Shown: piece by piece, positions 37,655-51,482 of the stretch
How the letters are laid out: each line of letters opens with the position of its first letter
How positions within the stretch are numbered: the first letter of the stretch is position 1
From: Achromobacter sp. UMC71
Lineage (GTDB): Bacteria > Pseudomonadota > Gammaproteobacteria > Burkholderiales > Burkholderiaceae_B
Length of the DNA stretch: 64,000 bases
Direction of reading: 5' to 3'
Assembly: GCF_014170305.1 (NCBI RefSeq)
Contig: NZ_LZZT01000059.1
Span: 1 to 64,000 of the forward strand
Made by a program: the position numbers and the translations under genes
Notes under the pieces: generated by a model
What the model saw: the letters and a program-made list of their open reading frames with translations, nothing else
What the model was told of the DNA's origin: nothing
Database searches by the model: none

Positions 37655-38449
37655 ATGTTGGAACTCGACGGCTCGATTTGGTTTCGTTCCGGCGCCCAGA
37701 ATTGGGGCGGAAAGAACCGCATAGACCTGTTGGCGCAAATCGACGCCACGGGCTCCATCACCGCTGCCGCGCGCGCGGTGGGCATGAGCTACAAGGGCGC
37801 CTGGGACGCCATCGACGCCATGAACAACCTGGCGGGCGAACCGCTGGTGCTGCGCGCCGCGGGCGGCAAGGGCGGCGGCGGCACGCGCCTGACGGACCGG
37901 GCCCGCAGCCTGATCGCGACCTTCCGCGCGCTGGAGTCCGAGCACCGCAAATTCATGGAAAACCTGACGCGCGCCGGCCTGACCGCCCGTGGCGACATCG
38001 ACCTGATGAGGCGATTTATGTTGAAGACCAGCGCACGCAACAAGCTCCTGGGCACCGTGATGGAAGTCCGCACCGGGGCCGTCAACGACGAGATCCTGCT
38101 GCGCATCGCCGGCGGCCACGTCATCACCGCCACCATCACGCGTGACAGCACGCAGGAGCTGGAACTGGCCCCTGGCAAAGAGGCGCTGGCGCTGGTCAAG
38201 GCCTCATCGGTGATCGTCGGCGCCCCGGGCCCCGGCCTGCGGCTGTCGGCCCGCAACCAGCTGCCGGGCACCATCGCGGCGGTGCGCACCGGCGCGGTCA
38301 ACAGCGAAATCCTGATCGACCTGGAAGGCGGCACCACGCTCGTGGCAATTGTCACCAACGAAAGCGCCACCGAGCTGGGGTTGGGCGACGGCGCTCCCGC
38401 GGTCGCCATCTTCAAGGCGTCCAGCGTGATCCTGGGCGTGCTGGACTGA
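37655..38449 (+). CDS. modE: Molybdate-responsive regulator ModE
   Basis: A 264-residue regulator with an N-terminal winged helix (IDLLAQIDATGSITAAARAVGMSYKGAWDAIDAMNN) and two tandem Mop/TOBE molybdate-binding domains (SARNKLLGTVMEVRTGAVNDE; SARNQLPGTIAAVRTGAVNSE). With molybdate bound it represses the molybdate transporter. It is convergent with modABC rather than divergent from it; a ModE-like site lies upstream of modA. TACACT at 37611-37616 is a possible -10. Confidence 0.95.
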   Translation: MLELDGSIWFRSGAQNWGGKNRIDLLAQIDATGSITAAARAVGMSYKGAWDAIDAMNNLAGEPLVLRAAGGKGGGGTRLTDRARSLIATFRALESEHRKFMENLTRAGLTARGDIDLMRRFMLKTSARNKLLGTVMEVRTGAVNDEILLRIAGGHVITATITRDSTQELELAPGKEALALVKASSVIVGAPGPGLRLSARNQLPGTIAAVRTGAVNSEILIDLEGGTTLVAIVTNESATELGLGDGAPAVAIFKASSVILGVLD

Positions 38450-38453
38450 CGCG

Positions 38454-38488
38454 CGCCCGTCGCTAACGGGCGGCGGGCAAGCTCCCGC
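38454..38488. terminator. Hairpins between modE and modC
   Basis: Two adjacent stems, CGCCCGT-CGCTA-ACGGGCG (38454-38472) and GGCGGG-CAAGCT-CCCGCC (38472-38489), lie between the convergent modE and modC genes. There is no clear T-run on either strand; likely a weak or factor-assisted bidirectional terminator. Confidence 0.5.
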
Positions 38489-38501
38489 CCTGCCCTCGCC
38501 C

Positions 38502-39188
38502 CTATACGCCCACGTCTTCGTCGCGCCGGCGCACCTTGCCCTCGCGCACCTCGAACACCTCATCGGCCAGCGCGTCGACGTCCGCCGGATCATGCGTGAT
38601 CAGCAGCATCGGCACGTTCAGTTGGCGTTGCAAGGCGTTCAGTTCCTGGCGCATCTTGCCGCGCAACTGGGAATCCAGGGCCGAAAACGGCTCGTCCAGC
38701 AGCAGGATGTCGGGCTTGAGCATCAGCGCCCGCGCCAGCGCGACCCGCTGCTTCTGACCGCCCGAGATCTCGCTGGGATAGCTGCCGACGATGGCGCCCA
38801 GTTCAAAGGCGTCGACCCAGCGCCGCGCGTCGGCCGAAACCGCCCGCTTGGGCGGATTGAGCCAGCCGCGGCGCGAGCCGAAGGCAATGTTCTGGGCCAC
38901 CGTCAGGTGCGGGAACAGCGCGTAGTCCTGGAACAGGTAGGCCACCCGCCGGGCTTGCGGCGCGACGCTGACACGGGCCTCGGAATCGAACAGCACGCGG
39001 CCGTTGACTTCGATGCGGCCAGCGTCGGGCCGCAGCAAGCCGGCCACCGCGCGCAGCGTCAGGCTCTTGCCGGCTCCGGACGGCCCAAACAGCGCAATCC
39101 GCTTGGACGCCGACGAAAACGCCACGTCCAGCGAAAAATGCCGATCGCCCGAGACCATGTTCTTGCGGATCCGCAGGTCGACGCTCAT
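38502..39188 (-). CDS. modC: Molybdate ABC transporter ATPase ModC, short form
   Basis: A 228-residue ABC ATPase: Walker A FGPSGAGKS, Q-loop FQDYALFPHLTV, signature [15 protein letters not shown], Walker B ILLLDEPFSALD, and the switch His in LLITHDPAD. ModC is normally about 350 residues with a C-terminal TOBE/Mop domain; this one stops right after the ATPase core. The start at 39188 overlaps the modB stop (TGATG); ATG 39191 is also possible. Confidence 0.92.
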   Translation of the reverse strand: MSVDLRIRKNMVSGDRHFSLDVAFSSASKRIALFGPSGAGKSLTLRAVAGLLRPDAGRIEVNGRVLFDSEARVSVAPQARRVAYLFQDYALFPHLTVAQNIAFGSRRGWLNPPKRAVSADARRWVDAFELGAIVGSYPSEISGGQKQRVALARALMLKPDILLLDEPFSALDSQLRGKMRQELNALQRQLNVPMLLITHDPADVDALADEVFEVREGKVRRRDEDVGV

Positions 39189-39871
39189 CATGCGCCTCCG
39201 CTGCGTCGGCTGGAACTGATCGGCACCAGTTTGCCGGCCGCCAGCAGCACCGCGATGCAGGTGATCGAAGTCACCAGCACCAGAAAGTTGGCGGTGGCAT
39301 CGTCGCCCGCCTGCACCGCTTCGTAGATGGCCACCGACAGCGTCTGGGTGCGGCCCGGCAGGTTGCCGGCGATCATCAGCGTGGCGCCGAATTCGCCCAG
39401 CGCGCGGGCAAACGCCAGCAGCACGCCGGCCACGATGCCCCGCGCCGCCAGCGGCAGCGTCACCCGGAAGAAGACACCGGCTTCGCACACGCCCAACACG
39501 CGGGCGGCGCTTTCCAGCTGCGCGTCGACGTTTTCGAACGCGGCGCGGGCCGACTTGAACACCAGCGGAAACGCCACCACCGACGCGGCGATGACGGCGC
39601 CCTGCCAGGTGAACACGAGTTCAATGCCCAGCGCCGCCAGCTTTTCGCCCAGCACGCCGCGCCGGCCCAGCAGCACCAGCAGGTAATAGCCCAGCACCGT
39701 AGGCGGCAGCACCAGCGGCAGCGTCAAAATGGCGTCCAGCAGGTCCCGCCCCGGCCAGCGCCAGCGGGACAAGCCGTAGGCTGCCGCGGTGCCGGCCACG
39801 GTTGCCAACAGCGTTGCCCAGCCCGCCACTTTCAGGGTAAGCAGCAGGGGCACCCATACTGGATCGCTCAT
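39188..39871 (-). CDS. modB: Molybdate ABC transporter permease ModB
   Basis: A 227-residue permease with five to six membrane helices and the EAA loop (ESAARVLGVCEAGVFFRVTLPLAARGI). LPLVLPPTVLGYYLL and FARALGEFGATLMIAGN are ModB hallmarks. It lies 43 bases after modA and overlaps modC. Confidence 0.95.
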   Translation of the reverse strand: MSDPVWVPLLLTLKVAGWATLLATVAGTAAAYGLSRWRWPGRDLLDAILTLPLVLPPTVLGYYLLVLLGRRGVLGEKLAALGIELVFTWQGAVIAASVVAFPLVFKSARAAFENVDAQLESAARVLGVCEAGVFFRVTLPLAARGIVAGVLLAFARALGEFGATLMIAGNLPGRTQTLSVAIYEAVQAGDDATANFLVLVTSITCIAVLLAAGKLVPISSSRRSGGA

Positions 39872-39914
39872 GACGCCTGCGATTCAAGATTCAACGTTCA
39901 ATCCCGGCCTGGAC

Positions 39915-40673
39915 TCAGGGCTTCTGGAAGCCGTAACGCGACAGGATCTCCTGGCCGGCGGGCGACAGCACATAGGCCACGAAGCTCTGGGCTTCCTTGG
40001 CGGCGGCGTCGCGCGCGGTCACGGCGATAGGATAGGTGACGGGCGTCTGCGACGGCACGCGCACGGCGACCTTGACCTTGTCCGGCATCACGGCGGCATC
40101 GGTGGCGAACACGAAGCCCGCGTCCACTTCGCCGCGCGACACGTAGTCCAGGCTCTGGCGCACGTTCTGCGCCAGCACGCTCTTGGCCTGCACCGCGTCC
40201 CACAGGCCGGCGGCCTGCAGCGCGCCTTGGGTGTAGCGGCCCACCGGCACCGAGGCCGGATTGCCGTAGGCGATGCGCTTGACGTCGTCGCGCGTCAGGT
40301 CCTTGAGCGCGGCGATGTTGAGCTTGCTGTCCGTCGGCACGATCAGCACGATCTGGTTGGACGCGAAGTCCACCCGCGAATCGGCCTTGACGGCTTTTTC
40401 CTCGACGGCCTTGTCCATCGCCTTCTGGTCGGCGGACGCGAACACGTCGGCGGGCGCGCCCTTGACGATCTGCTGCAGCAGCACGTCGGAGGCACCGAAG
40501 TTCAGGACGACCTTGGTGCCGGCATGCTCCTTTTCGTAGGCCTGCGCCACTTCCTTGAACGCGTTGGTCAGGCTGGCGGCGGCGGACACCACCAGGTCGC
40601 CGGCGTGGGCGCTGGAACCCCAGACGGCGGCCAGGGCCAGCGACACAGCCAGGATCGGGTGTTTGCGGAACAT
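39915..40673 (-). CDS. modA: Molybdate-binding protein ModA
   Basis: A 252-residue periplasmic binding protein with a signal peptide ending SSAHA. LVVSAAASLTNAFKEVAQAYE, FGASDVLLQQI and GEVDAGFVFATDAAV are typical of ModA. First gene of modABC, under a ModE-like site. Confidence 0.95.
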   Translation of the reverse strand: MFRKHPILAVSLALAAVWGSSAHAGDLVVSAAASLTNAFKEVAQAYEKEHAGTKVVLNFGASDVLLQQIVKGAPADVFASADQKAMDKAVEEKAVKADSRVDFASNQIVLIVPTDSKLNIAALKDLTRDDVKRIAYGNPASVPVGRYTQGALQAAGLWDAVQAKSVLAQNVRQSLDYVSRGEVDAGFVFATDAAVMPDKVKVAVRVPSQTPVTYPIAVTARDAAAKEAQSFVAYVLSPAGQEILSRYGFQKP

Positions 40674-40802: not shown

Positions 40803-41198
40803 TCAGCCGCGGTCGACCGTAGTGACGCGCACGGTCTGGGGCGCCAGCGCCGCGTGCAGGCGCTCCAGCGCCAGCTCGGGCCGCGCCGCGCCGCACATGA
40901 AGATGTCCAGCGCCGCGAACTGGTGTTCGGGCCAGGAATGCACGCTGATGTGGGATTCGCTGAGCATGACCACGCCGGTCACGCCGGCGCCTTCGCCGAA
41001 ATGGTGGAAATGGGCGCCCAGCACCTTGGCCCCCGCCGCTTCGGCGGCCAGGACCAGCTCGCGCTCCAGCGCCCGCGCGTCGGCCAGCAAGCCGGCCGGC
41101 ACGCCGCGAAAGTCGGCCAGGATGTGACGGCCGGGCGTGGCGTGCGGCGTCACCGGGGCGGGACGCGGGTCTTGCGGGGTCGAAACCAGCGCTGTCAC
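40803..41198 (-). CDS. speH: S-adenosylmethionine decarboxylase proenzyme (class 1B)
   Basis: A 131-residue bacterial SpeH that makes decarboxylated S-adenosylmethionine, the aminopropyl donor. The self-cleavage site SESHISVHSWPE is intact: Ser82 should become the pyruvoyl group, with His87 and Cys102 as processing and catalytic residues. The start is GTG 41198, which overlaps the stop of the 58-residue upstream gene (GTGA). The N-terminal 20 residues are a Pro/Thr-rich extension. The partner aminopropyltransferase-like gene is in the divergent operon. Confidence 0.93.
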   Translation of the reverse strand: MTALVSTPQDPRPAPVTPHATPGRHILADFRGVPAGLLADARALERELVLAAEAAGAKVLGAHFHHFGEGAGVTGVVMLSESHISVHSWPEHQFAALDIFMCGAARPELALERLHAALAPQTVRVTTVDRG

Positions 41199-41371
41199 TT
41201 GTGCGATCCGCCCGAGGACCAGCCCGAGCTGCCCGATGAACCACCGCCCCAGCTGCTGCTGCTGCCGCTGCTGGTACTGCCGCCGCTGGTGAAGCGGGCG
41301 CCGGGCGAGCTGGCGCCGGTGGCGGCCATGACCACGATCACGGCGTAGATGGCATAGAGGAACTTGCCCAT
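41195..41371 (-). CDS. 58-residue Gly/Ser-rich membrane peptide
   Basis: Too short for routine calling but well supported: ATG 41371 is 3 bases after the DUF4178 gene stop, and its TGA overlaps the speH GTG by 4 bases. The product has one hydrophobic segment (about residues 4-18) followed by a tail of some 35 residues made almost only of Gly and Ser with three Trp, ending SGGSHK. It could be a membrane-anchored or exported flexible tail, conceivably an acceptor for modification. No known family recognised. Confidence 0.75.
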   Translation of the reverse strand: MGKFLYAIYAVIVVMAATGASSPGARFTSGGSTSSGSSSSWGGGSSGSSGWSSGGSHK

Positions 41372-41374
41372 CCG

Positions 41375-42844
41375 CTATTCGTCCTTTGCGGACATCTTGT
41401 CCGCGAGGCTGGCCGGCAGCCACAGGAACGCCAGGCCGATCAGGATCGGCAGGAGGCGGCCGTTGAAAATATTTCCCAGGTTCAGGAAACCCATGGCGAT
41501 GGTCGCGAACCAGGCCCACTTGCGGTAACCGCCCGGCGTGCTCGCCCGCGGCATGGCTTTCTGCTTGGCCAGTTCGGGGTTGCCGAACCACTCGGCCAGC
41601 TGGGCGGGTGCCACCGGCCCAGCGGCGGACCAGCCCAGTTCGGCCGGCCCCTGCTCGCGGGTGAGCTTGAGGTTGCCCGCCTTGTAGTCGGTGATCTGCG
41701 TGCTGTCGCCCACCTTCACCCGCCAGTTGAAGGCGCCCAGCGCCAGGTCGACGCGCGACGTGTAGTCGTACAGCTTCTGGTACAGCTTGTCGCGCCAGCG
41801 CACGCTGGTGGCATTGTTGCGACTGGGCCAGGTGTCGCAGACCTGCACACGTTCCCAGCCCTCGTCCGTTTCCACCAGCCAGATGAAGCCCTTGACCGGG
41901 TTGAACAGCAGGTATTCGATCCAGTCGGACGGCTCTTCGGGGTCCGGGTCGGCGCATTTCATCAGGCCGATCAGGGTATAGGCCGCGCCGTCGATCTTGG
42001 CGGTGGCGCCGAGCGCCAGCGTGGTCTTGATGGCCTTGACCTTCTGCGCCTTGGCGATGACCTCGGCGGTCTCGCCGGCGCAGTCGACCGTGGCGGCGCA
42101 CGACGGGCACACCACCTGGGTGGCCATGGCCGCGACAAAGCTGATGGGCGCGCCGCAATTGGGGCAATCCAGCGCCTTGATCTGGCCGCGAAAGCGCCCC
42201 GCCGTCTCTTGCACCTGTTCGTTCGAACGCAACGAGGCCGCCTGCATGCCCGCCAGGTCGAAGGCCTTGCCTATGTACAGCTCGGGATCGGGGCTGTCGG
42301 AAAAATCCAGCGTCAGGAAGGCGTCCAGGCTGCGATAGTCGGCCACCTTGGCCTCCCAGCCATCGCCCGGCACGAAGGGCAACTCGCCCTGCGCGCCGCC
42401 GGCGCGGCAGGTGCGCACGTCGGACGCCGCGAAGCGCTGGCCGTCCAGCTTCAGTTCGTCGCCCGGCGCGATGTCGGCGAACGCCGGCATGCCCTGGGTT
42501 GACTTGACCTTGCGGCGGCGGGTGATGGCGTACTGGCCCGAGGCGTCCGACAACCAGCCGTCCGAGCCGTCGTCGAACCACAGATACCACTCGTTCCAGA
42601 AGCCGTCTTCATAGCGCAGCTGGATGCGGCCGATCAGGTCGAAGCGCTTGCCTTCGAACTGGCCGGCAGCGCCCAGGCACAGGGGCGAATAGTCTTCCAG
42701 CACATCCGCGGTTTCGCCGATGCGCTTGACCGACTCGGCGTCCTTGAGCAGCGTGCTGCGGCATGCGCCGCAGACCGCCATGACCGACGCCGTGGACGTG
42801 AACTTGACGGGCGCTCCGCACTGCGGACACAGGACCTGCTGCAT
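41375..42844 (-). CDS. Zinc-ribbon DUF4178 protein
   Basis: A 489-residue protein. Two zinc ribbons are visible (CPQCG at 6-10 with CGAC at 25-28; CPNCG with CPSC near 227-245), each followed by a DUF4178-type beta-rich region (LIGRIQLRYEDGFWNEWYLWFDDG; LIGLMKCADPDPEEPSDWIEYLLF). One or two membrane helices lie at the C-terminus before KMSAKDE. DUF4178 function is unknown. It lies 13 bases after the SPFH gene. Confidence 0.85.
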   Translation of the reverse strand: MQQVLCPQCGAPVKFTSTASVMAVCGACRSTLLKDAESVKRIGETADVLEDYSPLCLGAAGQFEGKRFDLIGRIQLRYEDGFWNEWYLWFDDGSDGWLSDASGQYAITRRRKVKSTQGMPAFADIAPGDELKLDGQRFAASDVRTCRAGGAQGELPFVPGDGWEAKVADYRSLDAFLTLDFSDSPDPELYIGKAFDLAGMQAASLRSNEQVQETAGRFRGQIKALDCPNCGAPISFVAAMATQVVCPSCAATVDCAGETAEVIAKAQKVKAIKTTLALGATAKIDGAAYTLIGLMKCADPDPEEPSDWIEYLLFNPVKGFIWLVETDEGWERVQVCDTWPSRNNATSVRWRDKLYQKLYDYTSRVDLALGAFNWRVKVGDSTQITDYKAGNLKLTREQGPAELGWSAAGPVAPAQLAEWFGNPELAKQKAMPRASTPGGYRKWAWFATIAMGFLNLGNIFNGRLLPILIGLAFLWLPASLADKMSAKDE

Positions 42845-42857
42845 GGGCGTTCGGCGC

Positions 42858-43910
42858 TCAGCTGGTGAGTTTCTTCAGCACTTCGGCCTTGGCCGAGTCG
42901 TAGTCGGCCGGCGTGATCAGGCCCTTGTCGAGCAGGTCCTTGAGCTGCTGCAGCCGCTGCACGGGGTCGCCCCCGGCCGCCGCGCCCGCAGCCCCTGCCG
43001 CGGCGGCGCCAGCCGCCGTGGCCTGCGCCGGCTGGCCCTGAGCCGCAGCCTGCCCCACGCCCAGCCCGGTCGCCATGGTCTGGCCCAGCGCCGCGCCGGC
43101 CGCCAGGCCCGCGCCGATGCCGGCGATGCCGCCTTCGTTCTGCGCCGCCAGCGGGATCGAGGTGGCCGTCTGGTACTGGGTGAACTTGCCCAGGTCGCCG
43201 GCCATGCCCATCGAGATCCGGGTGTCCAGCGCCTTTTGCAACTCTTCGGGCAGCGACACGTTTTCAACCGTGAAGTTGTCCAGCTTGACCCCGTAGCGAT
43301 CGAACACCGGGGCCAGCTGCTCGCTGATGCTCTGCGACATCAGGCCCTGATTGCCGGCGATGTCCAGGAACGCCACCTTGGAGCCGCCCAGCGCGGTAGT
43401 CATGGCGGCGACCACCATGTTGCGCAGCTGCAATTCCAGGTCGTCGACGGTGTAGACGTCGCGCGTGCCGCTGATCTCGCGGTAGAACTTGGCCGGATCG
43501 GTGATCTGGTACGAATACACGCCGAAGGCGCGCAGCCGCACCATGCCGAATTCGCTGTCGCGCAGCGTGACCGGCTGCGCCGTGCCCCAGCGCCGGCCCA
43601 GTTGCAGGCGGGTACTGAAGAAGATCACATCCGACTTGAAGGGCGACTCGAACAGCTTGTCCCAGTTCTTCAGGTACGTCAGGATCGGCAGCGTCTGCGT
43701 CGTCAGCTTGTACATGCCGGGGCCGAACACGTCGGCCACCTTGCCTTCGTTGACGAATACCGCCATCTGCGATTCGCGCACGGTCAGGCTGGCGCCGTAC
43801 TGGATTTCAAAATCCTGCATCGGATGGCGCCAGGCCAGCACGCCATCGCCATCCTCGTTCCATTGCAGGATGTCAATAAACTGCTTGCGGATAAATGAAC
43901 CGAGACTCAT
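42858..43910 (-). CDS. SPFH-domain protein with C-terminal SHOCT motif
   Basis: A 350-residue protein of the 'virion core protein'/YdjI-like SPFH branch (starts GSFIRKQFIDILQW, then MAVFVNEGKVADVFGPGMY). The SPFH fold covers about residues 30-240, followed by an Ala/Gly-rich linker and a SHOCT helix pair (LQQLKDLLDKGLITPADYDSAKAEVLKKL). SPFH proteins organise membrane microdomains. It is flanked by DUF350 and DUF4178 genes. Confidence 0.88.
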   Translation of the reverse strand: MSLGSFIRKQFIDILQWNEDGDGVLAWRHPMQDFEIQYGASLTVRESQMAVFVNEGKVADVFGPGMYKLTTQTLPILTYLKNWDKLFESPFKSDVIFFSTRLQLGRRWGTAQPVTLRDSEFGMVRLRAFGVYSYQITDPAKFYREISGTRDVYTVDDLELQLRNMVVAAMTTALGGSKVAFLDIAGNQGLMSQSISEQLAPVFDRYGVKLDNFTVENVSLPEELQKALDTRISMGMAGDLGKFTQYQTATSIPLAAQNEGGIAGIGAGLAAGAALGQTMATGLGVGQAAAQGQPAQATAAGAAAAGAAGAAAGGDPVQRLQQLKDLLDKGLITPADYDSAKAEVLKKLTS

Positions 43911-43955
43911 GGCAAGTTCTCCTGTGTCAGATCGGAATCAGCGCGTTCGGCCCGC

Positions 43956-44354
43956 TCAGGTCAGGCAGGCGGCGTTGACGACGCCGGCGGCCAGCGAGAT
44001 CGAACCGATCAGGCCGCCCATGGCGATATTGTTTTCTTCGATGGCTTCGTTCAGGCCGCGGATGGCCCGCGCCATGATCGCGTAGACGACCAGTTGCACC
44101 GCCATGGCGGCGACGCCCCAGACCACGAACATGACGAAGCTGGCGTGGATGGCGATGCTGGAGCACAGCGTGAAGGAAAAGCCCACCAGCGCGCCGCTGT
44201 ACGACAGCACCGCGGCGATGTTGCCTTCGCGGATCAGGTCGAATTCCTTGTAGCGCGTCACCGTGGTGTAGACGGCGGTGAACACGCCCAGCATCACCAG
44301 CGCCGAGACGATGTAGATCAGATAGGTCACGGCCGGATGCATCGCTTCTCCCAT
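43956..44354 (-). CDS. DUF350 membrane protein
   Basis: A 132-residue protein with four hydrophobic helices, matching DUF350 (YjfL-like). SYSGALVGFSFTLCSSI and NEAIEENNIAMGGLIGSISLAAGVVNAA are the characteristic repeats. ATG 44354 has GGGGGG upstream; ATG 44342 is also plausible with GGGAG. First gene of the leftward operon, reading from the shared divergent promoter. Function unknown. Confidence 0.85.
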   Translation of the reverse strand: MGEAMHPAVTYLIYIVSALVMLGVFTAVYTTVTRYKEFDLIREGNIAAVLSYSGALVGFSFTLCSSIAIHASFVMFVVWGVAAMAVQLVVYAIMARAIRGLNEAIEENNIAMGGLIGSISLAAGVVNAACLT

Positions 44355-44440
44355 ATTCGCCCCCCTTCAGGCCCTAATTGCGCGCAGTATATACGGCGCC
44401 TTCGATATACTGCGAACGCATTTTCTGAGTCGGAACCCCC
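44355..44440. promoter_or_regulatory. Shared divergent promoter with perfect inverted repeat
   Basis: Two 10-base arms, CGCAGTATAT (44383-44392) and ATATACTGCG (44405-44414), are exact reverse complements around a 12-base spacer containing GGCGCC. Each arm holds a TATACT -10 pointing outwards: 44406-44411 for the rightward gene and 44391-44386 for the leftward gene. The promoters therefore overlap back to back, and one dimeric regulator could control both operons. No regulator gene is in the cluster. Confidence 0.75.
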
Positions 44441-45952
44441 ATGCGCGACCGCGTTCTCATCCTGTCGGTATTGATCGTCGCATCCTGCGGCTTGGGCTAC
44501 GAGCTCATCAGCAGCGCGCTGGCCAGCTATTTGCTGGGCGATTCCATTCTCCAGTTCTCTTCCGTCATCGGCTGCTATCTGTTCGCGATGGGCATCGGAT
44601 CGTGGTTGTCAAAATATGTAAAAGACGACGACGTTTTGAATCGCTTTATCGACGTCGAACTGGCCGTCGCATTATTGGGGGGAGTTTCCGCCGCCGTCCT
44701 GTTCCTGGTGTTCGCCTGGCTGTCGGCGCCCTTCCGCGCCGCCTTGTACGTGGGCGTGTTCATCATCGGCCTGATGGTGGGCATGGAAATCCCGCTGGTA
44801 ATGCGCGTGTTCAACCAGCGCAAGACGGAATTCCGCGAAATCGTCAGCCGGGTGCTGACGTTCGACTACCTGGGCGCGCTGGCCGTCTCGCTGATCTTTC
44901 CGCTGCTGCTGGCGCCCAAGCTGGGCTTGCTGCGCACCGGGTTCCTGTTCGGCATCCTCAATGCCAGCGTGGCGCTCTGGACCACCTGGCTGTTCCGCGC
45001 CGAAGTGCGCCGGCCCGCTGAAAAAGCCATCCGCGGCGGCGTGGTGCTCGGCTTGCTGGCCCTGGGCTTCCTGTTCTCAGGCCAGATGACGGCCTGGGCC
45101 GAAAAAGGCCTGTACGGCGACGATGTGGTGCACGCCGAAACCACGCCCTACCAGCGCCTGATCGTGACGCGCTGGCACGACGACCTGCGCCTGTACATCA
45201 ACGGCAACCTGCAGTTCTCGTCGCGCGACGAACACCGTTACCACGAGTCGCTGGTGATTCCCGGCCTGCAAGCGCTGCCGTGGGCCCGCAACGTGCTGGT
45301 GCTGGGCGGCGGCGATGGCCTGGCGGTGCGTGAAATCCTCAAGTACAAGCACGTCGAGCACGTGACGCTGGTGGACCTGGACCCGGCCATGACCGGCCTG
45401 TTCTCGCGTTCCGAACCGCTGACCCGGCTGAACCAGAATTCGCTGAAGGATCCGCGCGTCACCGTCATCAACGACGACGCGGGCCGCTGGCTGGAAAGCC
45501 ATGCCGAGGTCTACGACTACATCGTGGTCGACTTCCCCGACCCGTCCAACTTCGGCCTGGGCCGGCTGTATTCGGTGCCGGTCTACCACCTGATGGCGCG
45601 GCACCTGGCCGAGAACGGCTACATGGTCATCCAGTCGACCTCGCCCTACTTCGCGCCGCGCTCGTTCTGGAGCGTGGACGCCACACTGAAGGAAGCCGGC
45701 CTGAACACCTGGCCGTACCACGCCTACGTACCGTCGTTCGGCGACTGGGGCTTCATCCTGGCCGGCAAGCGCCGCGACTACACGCCGCCCGCAGCCATCT
45801 CGGTGCCGACCCGCTACCTGGACCCGCCCACCCTGCGCGAGCTGTTCCACTTTCCCGCCGACATGCCGGCGCTGGCCATGCCGCCGAACCGCTTGAACGA
45901 ACAATCGCTCGTGCGCTACTTCGACGAGGACTGGCGCAAGGTCATCCGCTGA
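44441..45952 (+). CDS. Membrane-anchored spermidine-synthase-like aminopropyltransferase
   Basis: A 503-residue fusion of a membrane domain (about seven helices, residues 1-215) and a cytoplasmic spermidine-synthase fold. The latter has YQRLIVTR, GGGDG at 289-293, VDLDP at 311-315, and DFPDPSN at 364-370 in place of the soluble enzymes' catalytic D-x-x-D/DPxGP type loop. It should transfer an aminopropyl group from the SpeH product to an amine at the membrane; the acceptor is unknown. The ribosome site is weak. Confidence 0.9.
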   Translation: MRDRVLILSVLIVASCGLGYELISSALASYLLGDSILQFSSVIGCYLFAMGIGSWLSKYVKDDDVLNRFIDVELAVALLGGVSAAVLFLVFAWLSAPFRAALYVGVFIIGLMVGMEIPLVMRVFNQRKTEFREIVSRVLTFDYLGALAVSLIFPLLLAPKLGLLRTGFLFGILNASVALWTTWLFRAEVRRPAEKAIRGGVVLGLLALGFLFSGQMTAWAEKGLYGDDVVHAETTPYQRLIVTRWHDDLRLYINGNLQFSSRDEHRYHESLVIPGLQALPWARNVLVLGGGDGLAVREILKYKHVEHVTLVDLDPAMTGLFSRSEPLTRLNQNSLKDPRVTVINDDAGRWLESHAEVYDYIVVDFPDPSNFGLGRLYSVPVYHLMARHLAENGYMVIQSTSPYFAPRSFWSVDATLKEAGLNTWPYHAYVPSFGDWGFILAGKRRDYTPPAAISVPTRYLDPPTLRELFHFPADMPALAMPPNRLNEQSLVRYFDEDWRKVIR

Positions 45953-47589
45953 TGCGCCGCCGCACCTTCCTGTTGGGCACGGCCACCGCCGCCGCGGCGG
46001 GCACGGCGGGCTACTACCGGTCGCGCATCATCGAGACCACGCCCGACGTGCGCTATCCCGGCATGCAGGCCGGCCATGCGCTGCGCGACGGTGCCACGCT
46101 GCCGACGTCATCAAGTAGCCGCCGCTGCCAGGTGGCGATCCTGGGGTCCGGCGTGGCCGGCCTGACCTGCGCCTGGAAACTGGCGCGCGAAGGCCATACC
46201 GATTTCGTGGTGGTCGAGGGCCCCGAGTACGGCGGCAATGCCTCGGCCGGGCAGCGCGACGGCCTGGACTATCCACTGGGCGCGCACTACCTGCCGCTGC
46301 CGTCGCTGCAGTCCACCCACGTGCGCGAGATGCTGGCCGACTTCGGCATCGCCGAACGCGACGCCTACGCCGCGCGGCCCTATTACGACGAAACCGTCCT
46401 GGCGCATTCGCCGCAGGAGCGCCTGCTGCGCAACGGCCACTGGGAAGACGGCCTGCTGCCGATGACCGGCCTGCCCGACGGCGACGCCGAACAGCATCGC
46501 AAGTTCCTGGCGCTGGTGGATCAACTGCACGGGCAGGTCGGCAACGACGGCCACAAGGTCTTCTGCATTCCCATCGCGCTGTCGTCGCGCGACCCGGCCT
46601 GGCGCGCGCTGGACACGCTGACGTTCAAAGCGTGGCTGGACCGCGAGGGCTATACCTCGCCCGCGCTGCACTGGTACCTGAACTACTGCTGCCGCGACGA
46701 CTACGGCGCGCAATACGACGTGGTCTCGGCCTGGGCCGGCCTGCATTATTTCGCCAGCCGCGACGGTCATGCCGCCAACGCCGCCGAGGGCGCGGTGCTG
46801 ACCTGGCCCGGCGGCTTGGCGCCGCTGATGCAGCGCCTGCGCGATGCGATCAGCGCGCGGCTGGGCCACGCCGGCTGGCTGCTGCCCGGCACCGCGGTGC
46901 GCCTGCGCGAGACCGCCGCCGGCCCCCAGGTCGATTGCCTGGCGCCGGGCCCCGCCGCCAGCGTCTACACGCTGCAGGCGCGGCGCGCCGTCTGCGCCAT
47001 GCCGTTGTTCGTGGCCCAGCGCATCCTGCCCGACATCCGCGCCTACGGCTACGACCCGGCGGTGCACGCTTCACCGCACGCGCCATGGCTGGTGTCCAAC
47101 TTCGTCATGGACGGCTATCCGCGCGAAGCGCCCGGCGAGCCGCTGTCCTGGGACAACGTGGTCTACCAGGGCCGCGCATTGGGCTATGTGGTGTCGACCC
47201 ACCAATTGCTGCGGGTGGCGCGTTCGCCGCGCACGGTGTTCACGGCCTACGACGCGCTCAGCGGCAAGACGCCGCAAGCCACGCGACGATGGCTGGCCAG
47301 CGCCAGTCCCGAAGCGCTGCGCGACGAAGCGGCGGCGGATCTGGTGGCCGCCTACGGCGATGACTTCTGGCGCCGCGCGCGCCAGCTTGAAATCACGGTG
47401 CGCGGCCACGCCATGGCCTCGCCGTATTGCGGCTACCTGTCCAACCCGGGCCTGGCAGCCCTGCGCGACGTCGACGGCCCGGTGCTGTTCGCCCACGCCG
47501 ACCTGTCCGGCTATTCCGTTTTCGAGGAGGCGGCGTGGTGGGGCGTGGCCGCGGCCGGCCGGATCCTGGGGCAACGGCCGCCAACCTGA
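45952..47589 (+). CDS. FAD-dependent amine-oxidase-like protein
   Basis: A 545-residue flavoprotein. The N-terminus MRRRTFLLGTATAAAAG looks like a Tat-type or anchor signal with RRR; the FAD-binding VAILGSGVAGLTCAWKLA is at about 61-77, followed by EGPEYGGNASAG. The C-terminal part contains SGYSVFEEAAWWG, as in amine-oxidase-family ends. Its A of ATG is the last base of the upstream stop, so it is tightly coupled to the aminopropyltransferase-like gene; oxidation of a polyamine product is a reasonable inference. Confidence 0.85.
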   Translation: MRRRTFLLGTATAAAAGTAGYYRSRIIETTPDVRYPGMQAGHALRDGATLPTSSSSRRCQVAILGSGVAGLTCAWKLAREGHTDFVVVEGPEYGGNASAGQRDGLDYPLGAHYLPLPSLQSTHVREMLADFGIAERDAYAARPYYDETVLAHSPQERLLRNGHWEDGLLPMTGLPDGDAEQHRKFLALVDQLHGQVGNDGHKVFCIPIALSSRDPAWRALDTLTFKAWLDREGYTSPALHWYLNYCCRDDYGAQYDVVSAWAGLHYFASRDGHAANAAEGAVLTWPGGLAPLMQRLRDAISARLGHAGWLLPGTAVRLRETAAGPQVDCLAPGPAASVYTLQARRAVCAMPLFVAQRILPDIRAYGYDPAVHASPHAPWLVSNFVMDGYPREAPGEPLSWDNVVYQGRALGYVVSTHQLLRVARSPRTVFTAYDALSGKTPQATRRWLASASPEALRDEAAADLVAAYGDDFWRRARQLEITVRGHAMASPYCGYLSNPGLAALRDVDGPVLFAHADLSGYSVFEEAAWWGVAAAGRILGQRPPT

Positions 47590-47749: not shown

Positions 47750-48994
47750 ATGGGAAAACAAGTCATTGTGCTCGGCGCCGGCATCGTCGGCGTCTGCTGT
47801 GCGCTGGAACTGCAGCGTCGCGGCATGGACGTCACCCTGGTCGACCGCCAGGAACCTGGCCAGGAAACCTCGCACGGCAACGCCGGCGTGCTGGCCCGCA
47901 GTTCCCTGATGCCGTTCAACCATCCCGGCCTGTGGCGCCAGTTGCCCCGGCTGCTCAAGAACGACACCGTCCAATTCCGCTACCGCCCCGGCTACCTGGC
48001 CCGCAACCTGGGCTGGGCCGCCAGCTTCCTGTGGCGCGCGCGGCCCTCGGTCTTCCAGGAAACCGCCGCGGCGCTGGACAGCCTGATCCGGCTGTCGGCG
48101 CCCGAGCACCAGCGCCTGCTGGCTGAAGCCGGCATCAGCCACCGCCTGCGCGACACGGGCTGGATCTTCCTGTTCCGCAGCGAAGCCGCCTGGCAGGGCA
48201 GCGCCCTGTCGCGCGCCGCCTACGCCCGCCACCAGGTGCCGACCCAGGCGCTGGACCCGGCCGAGCTGGCGCGGCTGGAACCTGCCCTGGCCCCGATATT
48301 CACCCGCGCCCTGTGGATTCAAGGTTCGTATTCGGTGGACGATCCCGGCGCCGTCACGCGCGCCTACGCCGACCTGTTCCAGCGCCGGGGCGGCACCTTG
48401 CGCCGCCTGGACGCAACGGCCATCTGCCGCGACGGCGCAGGCTGGACCGTGCAAGGCGACCATGCGTCCGCCGCGCTCGCCGCGCCGGACTTGGTGGTGG
48501 CGCTGGGCCCCTGGTCCAAGTCACTGCTCAAGACCACCGGCATCGACCTGCCCATGGCGTTCGAGCGCGGCTATCACATGCACTATGGCGCCGGCGACGG
48601 GCCGGCGCTGACCCGGCCGGTCTACGACACCGGCGGCGGTTATGTGCTGTCCCCGATGGCCCGCGGCCTGCGGCTGACGACCGGCGTCGAGCTGAACGAC
48701 TGCGAGACCCCTGCCCGCCCCGATCAACTGGACCTGGCGGAAAGCCGCGCCCGCGAAGCGCTGGCCCTGGGCGCGCGGCTGGATCCACAGGCCTGGCTGG
48801 GCCGCCGCCCGACCCTGCCGGACAGCCGCCCGATGATCGGCCAGGCGCCGCGCCGCCCCGGCCTGTGGCTGGCGCTGGGCCATCAGCACATCGGTTTCAG
48901 CACCGCGCCAGGAACGGCGAAGATACTAGGCGAACTGATGTCCGGAGCGGACGGCACGCCCTACCGCGCATTTCGTCCCGGCCGGTTCATTTAA
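47750..48994 (+). CDS. D-amino-acid dehydrogenase (DadA-like)
   Basis: A 414-residue FAD enzyme: IVLGAGIVGVCCALELQRRG (dinucleotide fold), TSHGNAGVL (covered flavin region), YHMHYGAGDG, and the C-terminal GRRPTLPDSRPMIG and LGHQHIGFSTAPGTA. This matches the DadA group, which deaminates D-amino acids at the membrane and passes electrons to quinone. It is followed by an amino-acid ABC transporter and a racemase-like gene on the same strand. Confidence 0.88.
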   Translation: MGKQVIVLGAGIVGVCCALELQRRGMDVTLVDRQEPGQETSHGNAGVLARSSLMPFNHPGLWRQLPRLLKNDTVQFRYRPGYLARNLGWAASFLWRARPSVFQETAAALDSLIRLSAPEHQRLLAEAGISHRLRDTGWIFLFRSEAAWQGSALSRAAYARHQVPTQALDPAELARLEPALAPIFTRALWIQGSYSVDDPGAVTRAYADLFQRRGGTLRRLDATAICRDGAGWTVQGDHASAALAAPDLVVALGPWSKSLLKTTGIDLPMAFERGYHMHYGAGDGPALTRPVYDTGGGYVLSPMARGLRLTTGVELNDCETPARPDQLDLAESRAREALALGARLDPQAWLGRRPTLPDSRPMIGQAPRRPGLWLALGHQHIGFSTAPGTAKILGELMSGADGTPYRAFRPGRFI

Positions 48995-49058
48995 GACGCC
49001 ATCACAGCAGCACGGGCCGCCCGCGGCCCCGTACCAGACAGACCCCAAGGAGAAGCCC

Positions 49059-49895
49059 ATGAACACCAAACGCAAATTCGTCGCGTCCGTCCTGGCGCTG
49101 GCCGGCCTGGCCTTCGCCGGCGCGGCGCACGCCCAGTCCGCCAACGAGACCGCCATGGAGCGCATCATGCGCACCAAGACGATCCGCATCGGCGCCATCG
49201 CCGGCGCCATCCCCTACTTCAACAAGAACATCAATACCGGCAAGTGGGAAGGCTTCGGCCCCGACTTCGCCGAGATGTTCGCCGCCCGCCTGGGCGTGAA
49301 GACCGAATACCTGGAAACCACCTGGGGCAATTCGGTGCTGGACGTGCAGACCAACAAGATCGACCTGATGTTCGGCATGGCGCCCACCCCGGCGCGCAAG
49401 GAAGTCGTGAATTTCTCCGACACCCTGTTCCAGAACACCTACACCACCGTCTGCCGCAAGGGCTTCCCGGCCAAATCGTGGGCCGAACTCAACGCCCCCG
49501 AGAACCGCGTCGTGGTCGACGTGGGCTCCAGCCATGACCAGCTCGCCACGCGCGTGCTGACCAAGGCCACCGTCACTCGCCTGGAGAATTCCGGTTCGGC
49601 CACGCTGGCGCTGTCGTCCGGCCGCGCCGATTGCCAGATCCTGGTGGTGCTGCTGGCCAAGCCGCTGCTGGAAAAGCGGCCCGGCATCGGCGTCATGTCG
49701 ATCCCCAGCCCGGTTGAAACCGCGCCAGTCAGCATCGGTCTGCGCAAGGAAGCCGACGATTCGTTGCAAAAGGCCGTCAACGCCTGGCTGGCCGACATCC
49801 GCGCCAAAGGCGAGGTGCGTGGCGTGATTCTGTCCAACATGCAGAAGCTGGCCGGCGTGCCGCCCGAAGCCTTCCCGCCCGAAATCCAGTTCTAA
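49059..49895 (+). CDS. Amino-acid ABC transporter substrate-binding protein
   Basis: A 278-residue periplasmic receptor (SBP family 3). The signal peptide ends in AGAAHA; then IRIGAIAGAIPYFN, WEGFGPDFAEMFAARLGVK, TNKIDLMFGMAPTPARKE. Family 3 receptors bind polar or acidic amino acids. It lies 64 bases after the dehydrogenase gene; the gap has a small GGCCGCCCGCGGCC hairpin. Confidence 0.92.
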   Translation: MNTKRKFVASVLALAGLAFAGAAHAQSANETAMERIMRTKTIRIGAIAGAIPYFNKNINTGKWEGFGPDFAEMFAARLGVKTEYLETTWGNSVLDVQTNKIDLMFGMAPTPARKEVVNFSDTLFQNTYTTVCRKGFPAKSWAELNAPENRVVVDVGSSHDQLATRVLTKATVTRLENSGSATLALSSGRADCQILVVLLAKPLLEKRPGIGVMSIPSPVETAPVSIGLRKEADDSLQKAVNAWLADIRAKGEVRGVILSNMQKLAGVPPEAFPPEIQF

Positions 49896-49905
49896 GGCCG
49901 CGGCA

Positions 49906-50694
49906 ATGAACGACCAGAACGAAACCCTGCCCCGCTCGCGGGCAGGCGCCTGGCTGCTGGGCGTGGCGGTGGCCGTCGCCGTGCTCGCGGTCATCGTCAA
50001 GCGCGAAGCCATCTTCGGCGCGGCGGTCCAGTACGACTGGGACTTCAGCGTGTTGTGGGAATACCGCAAGCTGATCGCCGTGGGCGTCATGAACACCATC
50101 CTGTTCACCATCCTGTGCGTGTTCCTGGGCCTGGCGGTAGGACTGGTAACCGGCCTGGGGCGGCTGTCGCGCAACGTGCTGGTCACCGCGCCGATCCGCG
50201 CCTACATCGAGGTGTTCCGCTGCACCCCGGTGCTGGTGCAACTGGTCTGGTTCTACTACGCCCTGCCCGTGGTCACCGGCATCGAGATGTCGCCGGTGGC
50301 GGCGGCCACGCTGTGCCTGGCGCTGTACGGCGGCGCTTTCTATTCCGAGATCATCCGTGGCGGCATCATTTCCACGGATGCCGGCCAGACCGAGGCGGCC
50401 AAGGCGCTGGGCATGACGCCGGCGCAGGCCCTGCGCCGAGTGATCCTGCCGCAGGCGTTCAAGAAGATGGTGCCGCCCCTGATGAATCAGTCCATCATGC
50501 AGCTCAAGAACACCTCGCTGCTGTCCGTGCTAGCAGTGCCCGACCTGCTGTACCAGGGCCAGGTGGTGGCGCACGACACCTACCGGCCGCTGGAGATCTA
50601 CACCTTCATCGCGGTCGCGTATTTCGTGATCCTGCTGCCCTTCACGCTGTGGGCCAAGAAGCTCGAATTCGGCAGCACCGCCAAAGAGGCATGA
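49906..50694 (+). CDS. Amino-acid ABC transporter permease
   Basis: A 262-residue HisM/GlnP-type permease with about five helices and the EAA loop ([33 protein letters not shown]). It starts 10 bases after the receptor gene and its TGA overlaps the ATGACCATG start region of the ATPase gene. The N-terminal cytoplasmic tail is polar. Confidence 0.93.
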
Positions 50695-50696
50695 CC

Positions 50697-51482
50697 ATGG
50701 GCAACCCTCTCATCAATATCCAGGGCCTGCGCAAGTCGTTCGGCGGACAGGAAGTGCTCAAGAACATCAACCTGCAGGTCGAACGCGGCCAGGCCGTGGC
50801 CCTGATCGGGCCGTCGGGCTCGGGCAAGTCCACGCTGCTGCGCTGCATCAACCTGCTGACCATTCCCGACGGCGGCCGCATCGCGGTGGGCGGCCAGTCG
50901 CTGGCGTTCCAGGGCGCCGCCACCCGCCTGCCCAGCGAGAAGCAGCTGGCCAGTTTTCGCGCCTCGGCCGGCATGGTGTTCCAGCATTTCAACCTGTTCC
51001 CTCACATGACGGCGCTGCGCAATGTGATGGAAGGCCCGGTCACCGTGCTACGCATGCCGAAAAAGGAAGCCGAGGAACGCGCCCGCGAACTGCTGCGCAA
51101 GGTCGGCCTGGCCGAGCGCGCCGACTACTACCCCGACAAGCTGTCCGGCGGCCAGAAGCAGCGCGTGGCGATTGCCCGCGCGCTGGCGATGCAGCCGGCC
51201 GTGATGCTGTTCGATGAAGCCACCTCGGCGCTGGACCCCGAACTGGTGGGCGAAGTGCTGAACGTCATCAAAGGCCTGGCCCGCGATGGCATGACGATGA
51301 TCCTGGTGACCCACGAGATCGGCTTCGCCCGCGAGGTCGCCGACCAGGTCGTGTTCATGCGCGACGGCGTGGTCGCCGAAAGCGGGCCGCCGCAAGCCGT
51401 GATCGGCAATCCGCAAAACGAAGCCACCCGCGCCTTCCTGGCGCGCTTTCACCGCGCGCCAGGACAGGAGACTTCCGCATGA
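50697..51482 (+). CDS. Amino-acid ABC transporter ATPase
   Basis: A 261-residue GlnQ/HisP-type ATPase: Walker [11 protein letters not shown]-loop [13 protein letters not shown], signature [17 protein letters not shown], Walker [15 protein letters not shown], switch His in [12 protein letters not shown] 50697 is chosen because AAAGAGG lies 8 bases upstream; ATG 50691, overlapping the permease stop, is the alternative. Confidence 0.95.

Follow-up and report, generated by a model that had tools for sequence, protein, structure and literature searches.

Gene content of the locus

A cluster of seven genes occupies positions 40803-47589 of a 64,000-nucleotide stretch of DNA from Achromobacter sp. 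UMC71 (NZ_LZZT01000059.1), referred to here as the window. Its products include an S-adenosylmethionine (AdoMet, or SAM) decarboxylase, a membrane homologue of spermidine synthase, a flavin adenine dinucleotide (FAD)-type amine oxidase and a 58-residue peptide ending in lysine. We propose, with moderate confidence, that the cluster encodes an envelope system that attaches an aminopropyl group to this terminal lysine. The features are as follows, with the evidence for each in brackets (aa, amino acids).

40803..41198, minus strand: SpeH, a class 1b AdoMet decarboxylase, 131 aa (TIGR03330 and PF02675)
41195..41371, minus strand: tail peptide, 58 aa (translation; orthologous reading frames in relatives)
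41198..41203, minus strand: CAC AAG codons for the C-terminal His-Lys, followed by TGA; the lysine is the proposed aminopropyl acceptor
41375..42844, minus strand: zinc-ribbon DUF4178 protein, 489 aa, with a hydrophobic C-terminal region (PF13785, 90.7 bits)
42858..43910, minus strand: SPFH (Band_7_1) protein with a C-terminal SHOCT domain, 350 aa (PF13421, 252 bits; PF09851, 28.7 bits against a cut-off of 27)
43956..44354, minus strand: DUF350 (YjfL family) membrane protein, 132 aa (PF03994, 106 bits)
44355..44440, no strand: divergent intergenic region of 86 bases (coordinates), a putative control region
44441..45952, plus strand: membrane aminopropyltransferase, a spermidine-synthase fusion (NF002956, 698.8 bits against a cut-off of 472)
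45952..47589, plus strand: FAD amine oxidase, 545 aa, with the twin-arginine N-terminus RRRTFLLG (PF01593, 30.5 bits against a cut-off of 19.8)

All seven open reading frames (ORFs), five on the minus strand and two on the plus strand, were confirmed. The genes, family assignments and spacing given in a preliminary description of this DNA hold: the ORF coordinates yield intergene distances of 45, 13, 3, -4 and -1 bases, and the matches to PF13785, PF13421 and SHOCT, PF03994, PF01564 and PF01593 all lie above the Pfam cut-offs. SpeH matches both PF02675 and, at equivalog level, TIGR03330 (117.4 bits against a cut-off of 75.65), and its GTG start codon overlaps the stop codon of the tail peptide. 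The linker of the SPFH-SHOCT protein between the band-7 and SHOCT domains is Gly/Ala-rich, as judged by reading only.

Conservation of the C-terminal lysine

The 58-residue peptide consists of a hydrophobic N-terminal segment, a Gly/Ser-rich middle and a Gly-Ser-His-Lys C-terminus, and has no family match in Pfam, NCBIfam or PADLOC. Its relatives were sought at 80 named loci picked by similarity of the membrane aminopropyltransferase (hereafter also the synthase), a sample that leans toward near relatives; a short ORF directly follows DUF4178. Of these named loci, 63 contain a DUF4178 gene; at all 63 the tail ends in Lys and at 61 in His-Lys, the latter count made up of 60 found by script (54 separate ORFs and six fusions to DUF4178) and the Janthinobacterium lividum PAMC 25724 locus (L078), added on reading. 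The two others, both acidobacterial, end in FGGK. The tail codons vary synonymously (CAC/CAT and AAG/AAA), all three stop codons occur among the relatives, and the middle of the tail drifts from Gly/Ser repeats to unrelated sequence. A His-Lys end is found in only ten of the 2768 ORFs of at least 150 aa at the 80 loci. These ten comprise the six DUF4178 fusions, two ORFs assigned to the tail family and two more (L081 and L106) that by their coordinates share the tail's stop codon.

Two other accounts of this pattern were rejected. The lysine is not a by-product of a start codon overlapping AAGTGA, since it is kept with AAA and with all three stop codons, where the next gene is distant or different, and in the lineages whose His-Lys tail is fused to the C-terminus of DUF4178. 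Nor is Gly/Ser-richness the conserved feature, given that Rhodocyclales-type tails end in His-Lys without being rich in either residue. From its sequence, the 58-residue Gly/Ser-rich peptide looks like the substrate of the cluster.

A further sample, reaching down to approximately 35% identity, took in 51 synthase loci in another 50 genomes of the phylum; the synthase genomes G401, G549 and G274 and some lower-ranked fusion matches fall outside it. For 50 of the 51 loci, the genome encodes an exported protein whose low-complexity tail has Lys as its last residue. This tail lies at the locus itself in 46 cases, 35 of them recovered by an initial filter (a hydrophobic N-terminus, a tail enriched in G, S, R, T and Y, Lys as the final residue, no more than 3.5 kb from the synthase) and 11 by individual checking (9 + 2). 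Of the remaining Lys-ended tails, one lies approximately 10 kb from the synthase and three are on another contig. At the last locus, L168, no tail is present on the visible side and the other side is cut by the contig end. When the demand for Lys was dropped from the filter, 32 of the 34 ORFs with a hydrophobic N-terminus and a Gly/Ser tail near the synthase still ended in Lys, compared with one of six farther off. The end motifs seen are HK, RGK, RRGK, GGK, SGK, RVK and RIK, and a lipobox is present in 15 of the 25 tail proteins tested. Plasmid loci follow the same pattern, with a terminal Lys in all five read (of 13 records), including one from Gemmatirosa (Gemmatimonadota).

Glycine-ended tails beside peptide-spermidine ligases

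The YgiB-YgiC and YjfM-YjfC operons of E. coli (ygiBC and yjfLMC) resemble the Achromobacter cluster in that an enzyme attaching polyamines is accompanied by DUF350 and by an exported tail protein of low complexity. They differ in that this enzyme is an ATP-grasp ligase and the tail ends in Gly-Gly, whereas the Achromobacter cluster has an aminopropyltransferase and a tail ending in Lys. Both YgiC and YjfC carry the annotation peptide-spermidine ligase. Their DUF1190 partners in E. coli K-12 (NC_000913.3; genes at L204:1745-2416 and L205:7388-8026) are YgiB, ending in SRSMGG, and YjfM, ending in RGHWGG. Among the seven cluster proteins there is neither an ATP-grasp ligase nor a DUF1190 lipoprotein, the pair that marks the third operon group of Ravi et al. 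(2024), and no DUF1190 is found in the Achromobacter genome.

In the 33 DUF1190 loci read, out of 62 DUF1190-bearing genomes, every tail ends in Gly-Gly, and a YgiC/YjfC-type ligase lies within the fetched stretch in 30. A direct search found DUF1190 in none of the 45 synthase genomes, against 62 of 398 genomes in the phylum sample (expected overlap 7.0, P = 3e-4, with no correction for kinship). The C-terminal residue therefore follows the chemistry of the neighbouring enzyme, being Lys beside an aminopropyltransferase, which adds aminopropyl to amines, and Gly-Gly beside a ligase linking spermidine to a carboxylate. This matching rule predicts that the substrates of YgiC and YjfC are the C-terminal Gly residues of YgiB and YjfM.

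The membrane aminopropyltransferase and the amine oxidase

The aminopropyltransferase has seven predicted transmembrane helices (residues 2-211) followed by a spermidine-synthase domain (approximately residues 226-503). Its AlphaFold2 model has seven long N-terminal helices, a mean predicted local distance difference test score (pLDDT) of 89.4 and a predicted template modelling score (pTM) of 0.70. The C-terminal domain resembles solved aminopropyltransferases in sequence and fold. A Foldseek search with the full transferase returned aminopropyltransferase chains among the best 50 matches, and the fold of the membrane domain was thus not identified by it; the MFS_SpdSyn model NF037959 scores 28.4 bits on the fusion, below its cut-off of 40.

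Residues D292, D364 and D367, which we take to be the aspartates of catalysis and of the decarboxylated SAM (dcSAM) site, are invariant in 101 of 101 fusion sequences, as is Y267. The acceptor site differs from that of the soluble enzymes at two positions, 400 and 433, that presumably correspond to the putrescine-holding residues of human spermidine synthase. Position 400 is Glu in nine of ten soluble homologues but Thr (91), Gly (5), Ser (3) or Ala (2) in the 101 fusions, and position 433 is Tyr in all ten soluble homologues but Phe in all 101 fusions. Acidic residues are also kept within the membrane part (E21 in 99 of 101, E116 and D142 in 101 of 101), where they may offer a route to a cation such as dcSAM.

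Lys and Arg residues average 10.5 on the N-terminal side of the membrane domain against 3.2 on the enzyme side, with an excess of at least three in 57 of 57 sequences. The same bias is seen in 44 of 44 further (gamma-type) sequences, on a forced alignment. Together with the predicted N-in, seven-helix topology, the positive-inside rule would place the transferase domain outside, in the periplasm. A periplasmic active site is accordingly a prediction from modelled topology and not a secure assignment.

The oxidase matches PF01593 and PF13450, corresponding to an FAD Rossmann motif and an amine-oxidase fold. Of 66 homologous oxidase loci, 65 encode a twin-arginine-type N-terminus, and several also have a lipobox-like Cys. 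The sole exception is L078 (L078:11512-13142), where the oxidase gene seems to be frame-shifted by mutation or assembly error. Judging from its N-terminal sequence, the oxidase should work in the periplasm. The best fold match to its AlphaFold2 model (pLDDT 92.6) is putrescine oxidase (Z 27.8, root-mean-square deviation 3.4, 423 residues aligned). Monoamine oxidase, L-amino-acid oxidase and phytoene desaturase lie no more than one Z unit away, and with the top folds tied in this way the fold search did not single out a substrate.

Recurrence of the cluster

The closest named genomes are those of other Achromobacter, the synthase being 98% identical to that of A. deleyi. For counting neighbours, the named loci were restricted to the 52 with at least 7 kb of flank on one side and at least 6 kb on the other, and profiles were built for the analysis. 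All five other partner families surround the synthase in 41 of these 52 loci, so the clustering is not due to chance; at least one partner family is missing in the other 11. Within the phylum sample, DUF4178 occurs in 26 of 396 genomes, and all 26 belong to the 45 synthase-bearing genomes among 398 (E up to 1e-40; expected overlap 3.0, hypergeometric P = 6.6e-29, not corrected for kinship). The suggestion that the genes form a single unit is thus borne out both by the company they keep at the 41 loci and by the confinement of DUF4178 to synthase genomes. Gene content is kept while gene order is rearranged between lineages: Burkholderiales have the divergent arrangement, Rhodocyclales a collinear one with SpeH at the end, and Psychrobacter yet another.

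Several lineages have a half-length DUF350 of approximately 70 aa directly before the synthase, replacing the full-length form or alongside it (L117:5120-5329, L122:3360-3575, L124:9758-9973 and L200:7703-7912). A plasmid of Alteromonas mediterranea (L202:7944-14602) carries the synthase and SpeD beside a 'toxic anion resistance' (TelA-type) protein, DUF4178 and DUF350. This locus also encodes a protein ending in PSSGK and lies downstream of a DNA cytosine methyltransferase gene. In comamonad-type DUF4178 proteins (L161, L162, L177, L178 and L197), Cys residues (e.g. CSSCDPQRENC) lie between the last helix and the His-Lys tail. The flanks of the Achromobacter cluster appear, by reading, to be unrelated to it: a molybdate-transport-type operon with a ModE-like protein lies at 37655-40673, and a D-amino-acid-dehydrogenase-like gene (DAO match) and an amino-acid ABC transporter lie at 47750-51482.

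Proposed pathway

We propose, as the moderately probable account of the cluster, that it encodes a tail-modifying polyamine system of the envelope. SpeH, on the strength of its equivalog-level match, would decarboxylate SAM in the cytoplasm to supply dcSAM. As acceptor of the aminopropyl group the membrane transferase would then use, in place of putrescine, the C-terminal Lys of a small exported or membrane-anchored tail protein, at its side-chain amine. The target here would be the 58-residue peptide ending in -SHK and the product N-epsilon-(3-aminopropyl)lysine, a relative of hypusine. As the Lys side chain has the aminobutyl chain of putrescine, little change in chemistry would be needed. 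DUF350, DUF4178 and the SPFH-SHOCT protein may form a membrane scaffold that keeps enzyme and tail together. Finally, the oxidase, exported by twin-arginine translocation (Tat), may act on the product in an accessory step, either removing the aminopropyl group or oxidising its end to an aldehyde.

The preliminary description had suggested aminopropylation of a lipid, a protein tail or the polyamine pool at the membrane. The donor enzyme and the membrane transferase do point to aminopropylation there, and the Lys rule makes the protein tail the best supported of the three targets. Strong sequence patterns underlie both the choice of the tail as proposed substrate and the Lys/Gly-Gly rule, and the outside topology is a matter of prediction.

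More tentatively, we can envisage a periplasmic version of this pathway. The seven-helix domain would export dcSAM, the domain outside would write the aminopropyl-lysine, and the Tat-exported oxidase would either erase the mark or make a cross-linking aldehyde of it. Together with the ligase operons, the cluster would then define a single family in which C-terminal envelope tails receive polyamine groups through either of two chemistries.

Several points weigh against the tail-modification pathway or its periplasmic version. Such a modification has been observed nowhere so far, and the conserved Lys could serve instead for peptidoglycan attachment or docking. The synthase stands alone at four of the 11 loci that lack a partner family (L093, L098, L108 and L111). 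The oxidase is missing at several loci that have both synthase and Lys tail; this weakens the oxidase as a reason for the Lys and indicates that the order of aminopropylation followed by oxidation is not general, the oxidase step being accessory. The roles of SPFH and DUF350 are guessed from their families. A periplasmic transferase domain requires dcSAM to cross the membrane, and we know of nothing that accomplishes this. The sister ligases depend on ATP and are therefore expected in the cytoplasm, which makes modification of the tails ahead of export possible. The topology of the gamma-type enzymes derives from a forced alignment. Finally, three Psychrobacter-type DUF4178 fusions have two helices, an even count that would leave the tail on the same side as the DUF4178 domain. 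Among comamonad-type fusions, six have one clear helix before the tail and L164 has one clear and one doubtful helix; Snodgrassella-type fusions have three near the end.

Alternative explanations

The alternative that survives best, although we consider it unlikely, is that the transferase aminopropylates a lipid or other small membrane molecule, while the Lys-ended tail merely docks to the enzyme or regulates it. A membrane-embedded transferase with invariant acidic residues in its helices, an acceptor site unlike that of soluble spermidine synthases, and SPFH and DUF350 partners that fit a lipid environment are all consistent with this. It leaves unexplained, however, why, in lineage after lineage, the final residue stays Lys in an otherwise drifting tail, and why Gly-Gly stands beside the peptide ligase.

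It is improbable that the C-terminal Lys is a site of peptidoglycan attachment, with the polyamine enzymes acting on something else. Braun's lipoprotein ends in Lys, and Lys-ended tail proteins that are exported or bear a lipobox do occur at these loci. Peptidoglycan attachment would not account, however, for so strict an association with an aminopropyltransferase (50 of 51 loci), nor for the Gly-Gly ends in the sister system. Terminal Lys is also all that the two proteins have in common: Braun's lipoprotein has a lipobox and a helical heptad body, whereas the 58-residue peptide has no Cys, is Gly/Ser-rich and lacks, by eye, the heptad pattern.

There is similarly little likelihood that SpeH and the fusion are simply the cell's own spermidine enzymes, a reading that genome content alone would allow. 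SpeH is the sole PF02675 match, and hence the sole AdoMet decarboxylase, in the genome. PF01564 has three matches: the fusion, a 268-aa protein (contig C17, L002:1309-2115) and one below the cut-off. The 268-aa protein has GGGSL where the fusion has GGGDG and is, from its sequence, probably not an aminopropyltransferase, so only the fusion looks like a full one; NCBIfam, too, names it a polyamine aminopropyltransferase. Putrescine synthesis, described earlier as absent, is indeed absent from the cluster, but the genome has one PF01276 decarboxylase, so that putrescine can probably be made; it also has two family-level matches to PF02784.

Against a housekeeping role, the Glu and Tyr of the acceptor site are replaced in the fusions, and DUF4178, SPFH, the tail and an exported oxidase have no role in a spermidine pathway. 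The accessible text of PMC12803844, citing Li et al. 2019, further states that, by experiment, the bacterial counterparts of a fungal membrane-aminopropyltransferase fusion take no part in making spermidine or spermine. The possibility raised in the preliminary description, that these are the cell's only housekeeping spermidine enzymes, is thus half correct: they are its sole AdoMet decarboxylase and sole full-looking aminopropyltransferase, but fusions of this kind are, according to that text, not spermidine enzymes.

An anti-phage defence module, also suggested earlier, is very improbable: the PADLOC search gave single-domain similarities only, namely a desaturase model and mad2, which matches the transferase (window 44441-45952) over residues 279-447 only (E = 6.4e-16) and probably picks up spermidine-synthase-like domains in general, and the cassette content is kept across betaproteobacterial genera, as for a core envelope function.

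Comparison with known systems

Membrane protein-aminopropyltransferase fusions were reportedly described by Li et al. (2019, Biochem J), with their substrate left open. Those fusions and the transferase of this cluster share an N-terminal membrane domain, a spermidine-synthase domain and a role other than spermidine synthesis; the C-terminal Lys of a protein as acceptor is proposed here only. For these fusions, which reportedly make neither spermidine nor spermine, the proposal names a definite substrate that could be tested at low cost.

A polyamine-derived group on a protein Lys has precedents in the hypusine of eIF5A and the polyamine-bearing lysines of diatom silaffins. Both differ from the system proposed here in that they involve other enzymes and internal lysines, not bacterial envelope tails. 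If the proposal is correct, a hypusine-like modification would exist in the bacterial envelope as a new kind of protein modification, dcSAM would possibly be used outside the cytoplasm, and polyamines would be linked to PspA/SPFH membrane-stress systems.

The suggestion in the preliminary description that parts of this gene set recur in comparative genomic work proved correct, as the operon variant is described by Ravi et al. (2024, mSystems, PMC11237479). According to the accessible text of that paper, DUF350, DUF4178 and a seven-transmembrane spermidine-synthase fusion occur in one group of PspA/band-7 polyamine operons. In the variant concerned, a band-7-SHOCT protein with two transmembrane segments between the two domains replaces a CesT/Tir-PspA pair, and an AdoMet decarboxylase and a polyamine oxidase are added. 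A related PspA operon is tied to biofilm in the accessible part of PMC10948618. The Achromobacter cluster has nearly the same gene set as the variant, as far as the accessible text describes it: band-7 and SHOCT are in one protein, an AdoMet decarboxylase, a polyamine oxidase-like protein and DUF350 are present, and none of the seven proteins has a Pfam match to the PspA or CesT families. Polyamine sensing or aminopropylation of other substrates is proposed in PMC11237479, whose accessible text is silent on C-terminal Lys conservation, on a tail as substrate and on the membrane side. Neither the tail rule nor an aminopropyl-lysine modification was found in the literature searched, with most subscription journals outside its coverage. 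The cluster is an operon of a published kind, to which the present analysis adds a proposed substrate, the Lys/Gly-Gly rule and a predicted outside topology.

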